In this document: one piece after another, positions 29,856 through 32,547 of the stretch
How the letters are laid out: each line of letters begins with the position of its first letter
Numbering within the stretch: the stretch's first letter is position 1
From: Patescibacteria group bacterium
GTDB taxonomy: Bacteria > Patescibacteriota > Minisyncoccia > Phycocordibacterales > UBA2100
Direction of reading: 5' to 3'
Assembly (NCBI GenBank): GCA_021731295.1
Contig: JAKFXQ010000012.1
Location: 1 to 32,653, forward strand
Length of the DNA: 32,653 nt
Program-made: the position numbers and the translations under genes
The notes under the pieces: generated by a model
The model's database searches: none
Seen by the model: the letters and a program-made list of their open reading frames with translations, nothing else
Told to the model about the DNA's origin: nothing

Positions 29856-30941
29856 ATGACGTCAGTACAGCGGGCGTGCGCCGCAGCCACGATCGGTTTG
29901 ATCGCGATTGCGTTTGCCCTCATGACGCAGCGATCCGTTCACGCGGATACGGTACCGGTGTCCGGTTCCGAAATCGTTTGCGAAGTATTCGAACAATTAC
30001 TCGCCCTTGGTCAGCCAATCCCAGAAGGACTCGATGCATCAGGCTGCATGGGTGACGGTGGAGGAGGTGACGGTGGCGGAGATGGAGGAGGTGATAACGG
30101 CGGAGGTGATGGTGGTGGCGATAACGGTGGAGGCGGAGGTTCCGGAGGCGATGGCGGCTCCGGCGGCAACCCTGGCGGAGGTGGCGGAGGCGCCCCACAG
30201 TGTGAAGACAGTATCGACAATGATGGCGATGGACTCATCGATATAAACGATCCAGGTTGTGAGAATGCTGCTGATACTGACGAGTCTAATCCTGCTCCAA
30301 CGAGCGGCGGTACAGGAGCTCAAGAAGGAGAGCTCACGCTGGTAGCGACGTCTTCGGACTCAGGCGATGTAGAAGAAGTCGCGGTCGTTGAGGAAGCACC
30401 GGCGCCTTCGTGCGACTGGTATCTGACAGGCTTCATCCGTCAGGGACGCCAGAATGACGAAGAACAAGTGCGACGCTTGCAGAGTGTTCTGAAGGACATC
30501 GAGGGCATGACGCTTGAGATAAACGGTACGTTCGACACAACGACTGTTGCCGCGGTACATGCCTTCCAAAGCAAATATGCGAGCGACATTCTCACTCCGT
30601 GGGGAGAGACGCGCTCGACGGGATATGTCTATCTGACAACCCGGAAGAAGGTCAACGAAGTCTACTGTAAGGATAAGTCCTTCCCGCTGTCGGAGGCCGA
30701 GATGGAAGAAGTCCAGCGTGTTGCTTCGCAACGTCGCGAAGCGCCGGCAACTCCGACGCCAGCGCCCGTTGCAACTCCTGCAACAGAGGTCGTCGAGGCA
30801 GTTGAGGCTCCCGTAATCGAAACCGATGAGGTAGGCGCAGTAGAAATAGTGCCGACAACGCAGACGGCTGCAGCAGGTTCAACGGAGCGACCGTTCTGGC
30901 GTCCGATAGTCGACATTTTTTCTCGAATCTTCGGCCGCTAA
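29856..30941 (+). CDS. exported Gly/Asp-rich protein with calcium-type loop and peptidoglycan-binding domain
   Basis: The 361-residue protein has a signal peptide (about 1-30). A Gly/Asp-rich segment follows at about 65-112 (GGGDGGGDNGGG). Next is QCEDSIDNDGDGLIDINDPGC, a thrombospondin-type-3-like calcium loop common in CPR surface proteins. A peptidoglycan-binding-like domain lies at about 185-275 (EEQVRRLQSVLKDIEGMTLEINGTFDTTTVAAVHAFQSKY). The C-terminal part is Pro/Thr/Glu-rich and ends WRPIVDIFSRIFGR. Attachment to the cell wall is likely; the ligand of the Gly-rich arm is unknown. A strong terminator follows. Confidence 0.82.
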   Translation: MTSVQRACAAATIGLIAIAFALMTQRSVHADTVPVSGSEIVCEVFEQLLALGQPIPEGLDASGCMGDGGGGDGGGDGGGDNGGGDGGGDNGGGGGSGGDGGSGGNPGGGGGGAPQCEDSIDNDGDGLIDINDPGCENAADTDESNPAPTSGGTGAQEGELTLVATSSDSGDVEEVAVVEEAPAPSCDWYLTGFIRQGRQNDEEQVRRLQSVLKDIEGMTLEINGTFDTTTVAAVHAFQSKYASDILTPWGETRSTGYVYLTTRKKVNEVYCKDKSFPLSEAEMEEVQRVASQRREAPATPTPAPVATPATEVVEAVEAPVIETDEVGAVEIVPTTQTAAAGSTERPFWRPIVDIFSRIFGR

Positions 30942-30959
30942 AGGAAAAAGCAAAAGGAC

Positions 30960-30992
30960 ATATAAAAGACCGCCTCTGGCGGTCTTTTATAT
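30960..30992 (+). terminator. strong intrinsic terminator
   Basis: A 15-bp stem, ATATAAAAGACCGCC and its reverse complement, surrounds TCT and ends in TTTTATATT. Confidence 0.9.
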
Positions 30993-31017
30993 TGCGTGTG
31001 CTAAACCAAAAATATGA

Positions 31018-31137
31018 TTGACACCACAAATCATTCTGCGACTATGCGCGTACCGACAAAGGACATGTCGGAAGTCGAGATGGGCCCAAAGCCACAGCTT
31101 TACGCTGGTTTCCCTAGGTTTCGGGCCCATCTCGACT
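31018..31137 (+). ncRNA. candidate structured RNA with nested hairpins
   Basis: A TTGACA at 31018-31023 with a weak GACTAT 16 bp away could start a transcript near 31052. Two hairpins follow. CCGACA/TGTCGG lies at 31053-31071. A perfect 15-bp stem, AGTCGAGATGGGCCC with its reverse complement (31073-31087 and 31123-31137), encloses 35 nt that hold a smaller hairpin CAGC/GCTG. The loop contains 13 nt complementary to the tandem repeat at 31384. No protein frame is convincing. The right arm lacks a T tract, so the 3' end is unclear. Confidence 0.45.
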
Positions 31138-31276
31138 GTAGACAACAAATTCGTCCGTTATATTGCGCAGTTGGTAGAGACGCTGTTGAAGCTAATTCAC
31201 GCACACTTCAGCACAAAAGTATGTTTGACACGATGTCCCTGAACGTACTGCAGTGAGATATTCACACCCCAAGTCG

Positions 31277-31304
31277 TTGACACATATCTAGGACAGACGA
31301 TAAT
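31277..31304 (+). promoter_or_regulatory. strong promoter upstream of the Gly-rich surface gene
   Basis: TTGACA and GATAAT are 16 bp apart. The predicted start near 31311 gives a leader of about 380 nt. A weaker TTGACA-15-TACTGC lies at 31225-31251. Confidence 0.65.
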
Positions 31305-31311
31305 GCCGTTA

Positions 31312-31689
31312 CGTTTTCGTCGCGTGCGCCGCTTCGGGAACAAAGCGAGTAGTCATTCGTACTTCACGAACGATTACTACACATACAGGGAAACCAGTAC
31401 AGGGAAACCAGCGGTTTTAATCTATGACCGCTTTCACCAAGCGTACCTCGGCATCCGCGCTATTGGCGTGCGTGCCGATTTGTATTTTTGGGGTTTGCGA
31501 TCGCGCGTGAAGTGTGCGGCGCGATCCCTCCTCCGAGGGACCGCGCCGTGGACTGCACGGGCTGGCCTTCGGGTCGGAGGACGAAGTTCACAAGTCTGGT
31601 CGATACCTGTATCACGCGGACCGTACGGGCGCGGGATGCAGATTACAAAGTGCAACACGCACATTAGAAACAATTCAAAAAGCAAACAT
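31312..31689 (+). other. long structured 5' leader of the Gly-rich gene
   Basis: No convincing gene lies here; the track's ORF from 31303 begins inside the -10 box. The leader holds the 14-bp tandem repeat, AGCGGT/ACCGCT arms around 31410-31433, TCGGCA/TGCCGA arms around 31449-31479, and a long hairpin at 31516-31549. That hairpin pairs CGGCGCG with CGCGCCG and TCCCTC with GAGGGA, with one mismatch. No Shine-Dalgarno site precedes the start codon. Confidence 0.5.
31384..31411 (+). repeat. 14-bp perfect tandem repeat
   Basis: TACAGGGAAACCAG is repeated twice without a gap. The segment 31401-31413 is an exact complement of 31103-31115 in the loop of the upstream hairpin. Two units only, so it is not a CRISPR array. 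Confidence 0.8.
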
Positions 31690-32547
31690 ATGACAAAGGC
31701 AATGGGTCTCACAGCAGGCGCAGTTGTCGCAGTCGCGCTTCTCGCAGCTTCTCCGGCTTTCGCCTACCAGAAGGGCGGGAACAACAACAACGACTGCGGC
31801 TGTGTCGGCGAGACTGACAACGGCATCAAGATCAAGGTTATCAACTTCGGTGAGGTCTACAGCGGCACTGCTGCTGTTGCGAACACCGGCGGTAACTACG
31901 CAGGTGGTTCTTACGGCGGTGAGGGTGGCGATGGCGAGGAAGGCGGCAATGGCGGTGAAGCCAACGTCGACGGATACGGCCTCGCAGACGGTGGTGAGGG
32001 CGGCAATGGCGGCCATGGTGGCCAGGGTGGCGACGGCGGTGCAGGCGGTCTCGTTGAGACTGGCGACGCAGAAGCTGACGCTGGTTCTATGAACGCTGTC
32101 AACTCGACTGACATCGATGTCACGCAGGCAGACTGTGGTTGTGACGAAGAGGTCAGCGGTTGGTACGACTCGTTGGGCAACTTCCATCCTTTCAAGGAGG
32201 GAGATGTTGATAACGAAGTTGAAATCGAGGTTGTCAACGCAGGTGGCGTCATGGACGAAACTGTTGCAGCAGCAGACACGGGCAACAACAAGGCCAAGGG
32301 CAGCTACGGCGGTGAAGGAGGCAAGGGCGACGACGGCGGCAACGGCGGCGACGCAAATGCATCTGAAGGCAACGAGTGTGATTGCTACACCTACCCAGGT
32401 GAAGCTTACGGCGGCAATGCTGGCGACGGCGGCGTCGGAGGCAACGGTGGTCACGGCGATGTCGGTGGCACGATCCGCACGGGTCGCGCAACGGCAAACG
32501 CAGGCTCGATCAATGTCGTTAACACGAACTTGATCCGCGTTCGTTAA
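31690..32547 (+). CDS. exported Gly-rich surface protein with internal duplication
   Basis: From the ATG at 31690 the 285-residue protein has a signal peptide (GLTAGAVVAVALLAASPAFA). Two copies of a module follow. Each begins DCGC, has an alternating strand (IKIKVINFGEVYSG; VEIEVVNAGGVMDE), then SYGGEGG and a long Gly/Asn/Asp-rich stretch. Each ends TGxAxAxAGSxNxVN, as in TGDAEADAGSMNAVN and TGRATANAGSINVVN. This repeated Asn/Thr-Gly pattern is common in CPR surface proteins and suggests a beta-solenoid or fibre. Function is unknown. The ORF track's 129 extra N-terminal residues are not credible. Confidence 0.8.
   Translation: MTKAMGLTAGAVVAVALLAASPAFAYQKGGNNNNDCGCVGETDNGIKIKVINFGEVYSGTAAVANTGGNYAGGSYGGEGGDGEEGGNGGEANVDGYGLADGGEGGNGGHGGQGGDGGAGGLVETGDAEADAGSMNAVNSTDIDVTQADCGCDEEVSGWYDSLGNFHPFKEGDVDNEVEIEVVNAGGVMDETVAAADTGNNKAKGSYGGEGGKGDDGGNGGDANASEGNECDCYTYPGEAYGGNAGDGGVGGNGGHGDVGGTIRTGRATANAGSINVVNTNLIRVR

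Follow-up and report, generated by a model that had tools for sequence, protein, structure and literature searches.

In the UCCC-motif sRNAs of Gram-positive bacteria, such as the Rsa RNAs of S. aureus, the UCCC in an accessible loop makes the first contact, and ChiX of E. coli acts together with Hfq. LhrC of Listeria monocytogenes binds positions -19 to -11 of lapB and blocks translation, and Hfq is not needed (PMC4132741). In the ChiX/chiP/ChiZ system of E. coli the sRNA finds its pairing site in a 5' UTR, and transcription that ends early leaves a short leader RNA with this site (PMC7815308).

The putative sRNA locus described here resembles each of these systems in part. The likeness to LhrC lies in the pairing of a C-rich (UCCC) loop with a G-rich site of a surface-protein mRNA and in the dispensability of Hfq (PMC4132741). 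However, LhrC is multicopy, has three redundant sites and has no adjacent target leader, whereas here we found one copy per genome with a single 12-nt seed, next to an attenuator-like leader, and the identical box recurs in several genes. Membership in the LhrC family was rejected, as Rfam scans of the window and of the related loci gave no LhrC match and the hairpin pattern occurred in single copy per genome. With ChiX the locus shares pairing in a 5' UTR and a short terminated leader containing the pairing site, but ChiX uses Rho; the terminator of the present leader is intrinsic, Hfq was not found, and the sRNA lies next to its leader. The Rsa RNAs share the UCCC in an accessible loop; they differ in structure, lineage and targets, and the seed here is longer and exactly conserved. 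Hfq was detected in none of the 20 sRNA-bearing genomes, and in control genomes it was detected by the same search. In the open literature and Rfam, no described sRNA network was found for these ultra-small bacteria.

The locus and its complementary segments

The whole stretch of DNA that was analysed, called the window below, comprises 32,653 nucleotides of a very small, uncultured Patescibacteria group bacterium (contig JAKFXQ010000012.1). The features discussed are as follows.

29856-30941, + strand: upstream gene for a secreted protein, with a weak PG_binding_1 (peptidoglycan-binding) match just below the curated cut-off
30960-30992, + strand: terminator-like hairpin of the upstream gene, 15-bp stem, bidirectional shape
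31018-31045, + strand: predicted sRNA promoter, TTGACA-16-GACTAT; probable start site near 31052
31062-31151, + strand: putative sRNA hairpin, matched by covariance model R1 with 81.9 bits; stem 31073-31087/31123-31137
31103-31115, + strand: predicted sRNA pairing region (seed) CGCUGGUUUCCCU, with its 5' part in the apical CAGC/GCUG stem and GUUUCCCUA unpaired
31277-31304, + strand: predicted leader promoter, TTGACA-16-GATAAT (promoter-like at 11/12); probable start site near 31311
31387-31397, + strand: first copy of the target box, 11 nt complementary to the sRNA
31401-31413, + strand: second copy of the target box, AGGGAAACCAGCG, 13 nt complementary to the sRNA
31410-31432, + strand: leader hairpin, with the 3' half of the target box as its 5' arm and an AUG (31424-31426) at the loop
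31424-31510, + strand: leader ORF of 28 codons, crossing the terminator
31448-31489, + strand: intrinsic terminator in the leader, hairpin 31448-31478 and U tract
31504-31649, + strand: second conserved leader domain after the terminator, with a long hairpin (31504-31558), a CGUGGACU...AGUUCAC helix, an invariant GGUCGA and a hairpin around CCGUACGG
31690-32547, + strand: downstream gene for a secreted glycine-rich repeat protein, without a Pfam match

The two stem arms were fully complementary and form a perfect 15-bp hairpin; the only other perfect 15-bp hairpin within the window was the terminator at 30960-30992. The preliminary description had this stem exposing a 35-nt loop. The perfect stem stood, but the loop is not fully open, since AAGCC/GGTTT-type pairs and an apical CAGC/GCTG stem (CAGC-UUUA(C)-GCUG) form inside it and leave GTTTCCCTA as an exposed asymmetric bulge of a partly structured loop. 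The complementarity reported there proved exact. Bases 31103-31115 of the loop were the 13-nt complement of 31401-31413, a match reached in 0 of about 4,800 trials with random 35-mers against 553-nt stretches of the same window, and eleven of them (31105-31115) also matched the first repeat unit at 31387-31397, the downstream repeat consisting of two 14-nt copies of TACAGGGAAACCAG at 31384-31411. The promoter that had been placed between hairpin and repeat was likewise recovered as the TTGACA-16-GATAAT sequence listed above.

Several other features of the neighbourhood were recorded. No relatives of the glycine-rich protein were found when they were sought, and its reading frame is open for 387 nt 5' of its ATG across the whole leader (31303-32547), probably by chance. 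A Y1 (IS200-like, RAYT-type) transposase gene lies directly 5' of the sRNA locus in L028 (4904-5596) and likewise in L031, L037 and L202, and in L034 and L036 large inverted repeats (GCATAGGATACGCC... and CACCCCGTGCCGTG...) lie between the sRNA hairpin and the leader promoter.

Conservation of the hairpin and of its pairing

A DNA search of the genus identified the hairpin loop and a leader hairpin as the best-conserved pieces of 30940-31700. The pattern CAGCUUU(N0-2)CGCUGGUUUCCC occurred once per genome in 11 genus genomes, and together with a real hairpin it was also present in further contigs of Kaiserbacteria, Nomurabacteria and other Parcubacteria; 12 of the 25 genome-contig matches of the pattern, from unrelated phyla and without the hairpin, were discarded as chance. 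A covariance model added two members of the genus (G001 and G032), bringing it to 13 genomes, and gave matches in three further families of the order (f8, f52 and f58). Among 380 genomes drawn across the phylum and searched with strict filters, no member besides the window's own genome was detected. As the seed was the search pattern with which the first 15 sRNAs were gathered, its invariance in these is partly by construction; the members found by the model, and the boxes, are independent of that collection.

In an alignment of 20 sequences, 95.8% of the pair cells were kept and 19 of the 24 stem pairs showed double (compensatory) changes. The covariation score was 0.547; shuffled alignments gave 0.255 (0/500), and sliding the structure gave no more than 0.17. 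The stem was rich in G-U pairs and the loop was better conserved than the stem. With the gathering thresholds of Rfam 15 the window gave a tRNA only and six related loci gave nothing, and relaxed thresholds returned chance-level matches, none of them on the hairpin. The hairpin is a new family of putative sRNAs, absent from Rfam. The preliminary description had called it a candidate undescribed regulatory RNA and had pointed to covariation in relatives as a check; that proposal is strengthened by the compensatory changes, by the lack of an Rfam family and by a complementarity to the leader that was kept in 22/22 loci.

A GGGAAACCAGCG-type box was present downstream of the hairpin, on the same strand, in all 22 loci having enough downstream sequence, at a distance of 102-505 nt, and the seed/box duplexes ranged from -23 to -29 kcal/mol across loci. 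Tandem boxes were found in the window and in G028, G035 and G036, the leaders often having two or three. In G032 the seed was one base shorter (GGCUGGUUCCC, lost U) and the target was matchingly shorter (GGGAACCAGCC, lost A), and a further paired change converted CGCUGG/CCAGCG to GGCUGG/CCAGCC; its own duplex reached -25.8 kcal/mol, versus a mean of -19.1 with the targets of other genomes. A smaller co-change, AGCUGG/CCAGCU, was seen in G076 (-25.0 with its own target versus -22.4), and in G001 and G273 the pairing was maintained through G-U pairs. Relatives that keep hairpin and leader with the complementarity lost, which the preliminary description had named as evidence against its proposal, were looked for among these loci and none appeared. 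The comparative evidence supports the pairing well, and we have little doubt that the hairpin is a real base-pairing sRNA.

The leader and other genes carrying the box

A TTGACA/-10 site (score of at least 9) preceded the hairpin in 13/23 loci versus 1.4 in shuffles, and such a site preceded the box in 19/22 loci versus 2.0. Terminator-like sites followed the hairpin in 10/22 loci versus 3.3 in shuffles; directly after the window's own hairpin, none was recognised. An AUG lay 12-28 nt after the box start in 22/22 loci (6.2 expected, maximum 12 in 500 shuffles), and in 21/22 the CAGCG of the box was paired, as part of the 5' arm of a hairpin around this AUG. The leader ORF extended to the U tract of the terminator in 12/22 loci (3.9 expected, maximum 9), and the leader peptides were not conserved. 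The layout of an attenuator with a leader ORF was found, namely an AUG in every locus followed by an intrinsic terminator before the gene in 21/22, versus 3.5 in shuffles. When the target was blocked in folding, the predicted terminator was unchanged, with 18/19 formed either way, which makes direct refolding unlikely; regulated attenuation, if any, should therefore act through translation of the leader ORF. Conservation of the second leader domain reaches the start codon of the secreted protein; 10 of its 19 predicted pairs have double changes, and the domain could be a separate cis-regulatory element or a protein site. Its helix CGUGAACU/AGUUCACG shows matched changes (GUGGAC/GUCCAC) in leaders of several families.

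The target 11-mer occurred 36 times in 11 genomes versus 3 times for a reversed control, 11 of the 36 being the sRNA genes themselves. Beyond the sRNA, the 12-mer of the box was present in 11 of 13 sRNA-bearing genomes of the family versus 4 of 55 others (Fisher 6e-8, with kinship ignored). Of these four, G019 carries two good boxes, and the boxes of the remaining three resemble chance matches. On its contig C4 (L162), perfect boxes at 143-154 and 1720-1731 precede genes for secreted proteins; the sRNA was not found in G019, and one of the boxes lies within 150 nt of a contig end. The boxes in G022, G042 and G044 were set aside as apparent chance matches in coding sequence, and so were about ten of the extra boxes in sRNA genomes.

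Boxes just 5' of the AUG of secreted or membrane proteins were identified in the window's own genome (L094), in L101, L218 and L228 and twice in G019, and further start-codon boxes belong to genes for a camelysin-like protein (L211), a polysaccharide deacetylase (L099) and a glycosyltransferase (L108). In L218, L101 and L232 the box directly adjoins the start codon. In G076 and G032, polysaccharide deacetylases are encoded downstream of the leader. The box also falls within coding sequence. Secreted proteins encoded upstream of the sRNA carry L-GNQR (Gly-Asn-Gln-Arg) in the signal peptide, 70-80 nt into the gene. Among 14 GNQR genes found by protein pattern, the exact codons GGA AAC CAG CGT were used in 11 and GGAAACCAGCG in 12, and one more gene with GNQR codons was found in family f58. 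The near-invariance of these codons, versus mixed codons for the other invariant residues of GNQR proteins (in a set chosen by DNA motif), suggests that the signal-peptide box is under selection at the RNA level. The upstream gene of the window is without the box (MTQR), and its orthologs or paralogs elsewhere have it. In L202 (G010:C40) a homologous locus has a GNQR gene and the sRNA was not detected, an absence that is uncertain because of a run of N nearby.

Proposed mechanism and its alternatives

The reading that we favour, and hold to be probable, is that of a separate sRNA that pairs, without Hfq, with the mRNAs of cell-surface genes, most likely represses them and feeds a leader attenuator. 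The hairpin would be a small RNA of its own, roughly 100 nt long and with its own promoter, presenting the conserved pairing segment CGCUGGUUUCCC in its loop. It would pair with the 12-nt box GGGAAACCAGCG that marks cell-surface and exopolysaccharide mRNAs, the targets being the adjacent leader of the glycine-rich protein gene, the 5' UTRs of other secreted-protein and polysaccharide deacetylase genes, and signal-peptide codons. Relative to the leader AUG the duplex spans about -22 to -10; in other genes it touches or overlaps the start codon. With the box some 10-22 nt upstream of a conserved AUG, pairing at the leader would be expected to keep ribosomes from entering and so to repress; the leader ORF would then be untranslated and the following intrinsic terminator would act. 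Repression by blocking initiation, argued from LhrC and from the position of the box, we put slightly above an even chance, and the attenuation step somewhat below one. Blocking of initiation does not apply to the signal-peptide boxes, as these lie 70-80 nt into the gene. Comparative sequence evidence supports the RNA structure, the co-changing complementarity and the conserved promoters, AUG and terminator. Transcription, repression as opposed to activation, the attenuation step and the number of targets in the cell are inferred. In its widest form, which we offer tentatively, the model would be an Hfq-free regulon in which one exact 12-nt tag in 5' UTRs and signal-peptide codons unites secreted and exopolysaccharide genes, with the neighbouring leader as target, attenuator and sponge at once.

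The sign of regulation could be the opposite. As the AUG sits within a hairpin built from the box, pairing could also uncover it. The CGCUG of the sRNA is identical to the 3' arm of the leader hairpin; the sRNA would invade that hairpin and free the start codon, and translation of the leader ORF would suppress the terminator and turn the gene on. The involvement of the 3' half of the box as the 5' arm in 21/22 loci, with arms that co-vary (GGU/ACC, GAC/GUC), favours such activation. However, about -22 to -10 of the AUG, within the 30S footprint, would remain inside the duplex, and the boxes of L218, L101 and L232 abut the start codon with no room for this; we regard activation as unlikely. The short terminated leader RNA could also be the product itself, soaking up the sRNA and relieving other surface-gene mRNAs. 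The strong terminator shortly after the box, the tandem boxes in the window, G028, G035 and G036 and the ChiZ/ChiX precedent (PMC7815308) speak for this sponge, which can act alongside the repressing sRNA; yet alone it leaves the universal AUG after the box and the second leader domain unexplained, and as the explanation we consider it improbable.

The preliminary description had left a choice between two RNAs that pair and one RNA that refolds. Hairpin loop and repeat are on the same strand, close together and perfectly complementary, as a single long refolding transcript would have them, but the intervening promoter is kept in 19/22 loci, terminator-like sites follow the hairpin in 10/22, the spacing is variable, the box is present in unlinked genes, and blocking it leaves the predicted leader terminator as it was. 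Two separate RNAs, with promoter-like sequences for both, are better supported by these comparisons, and the single refolding RNA is very improbable. Equally improbable is a DNA-level element, either a protein-binding inverted repeat or the target of a transposase. In G003, G023 and G041 a Y1 transposase gene does immediately precede the hairpin, but it adjoins the hairpin in a minority of loci only; moreover, the stem contains many G-U pairs, conservation is higher in the loop than in the stem, the box always points the same way with respect to the gene at those targets that were checked as functional, and the pattern finds one hairpin per genome. A REP/RAYT or IS200 element was rejected on the copy number and on the presence of an adjacent transposase in some genomes only. 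TATAAT-like sequences come after the hairpin in some genomes and prompted the idea that it is read from the opposite strand, with the box as a shared protein site; this was dropped, as TTGACA/-10 pairs lie ahead of the hairpin on the + strand in 13 of 23 loci, and the loop read from that strand is the complement of the targets.

The hairpin, the tag and their match, kept in related bacteria, point to control of the cell surface by an RNA regulator that had not been described. If this is true, the regulator would have a target tag that can be read, so that its regulon could be listed from sequence alone, and it would belong to a lineage in which few regulators are known and Hfq was not detected. 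The targets, which include secreted glycine-rich, SpaA- or camelysin-like and peptidoglycan-binding proteins and polysaccharide deacetylases, are plausible surface parts for cell attachment. A general question would also become testable, namely what length and exactness of seed an sRNA needs without Hfq.
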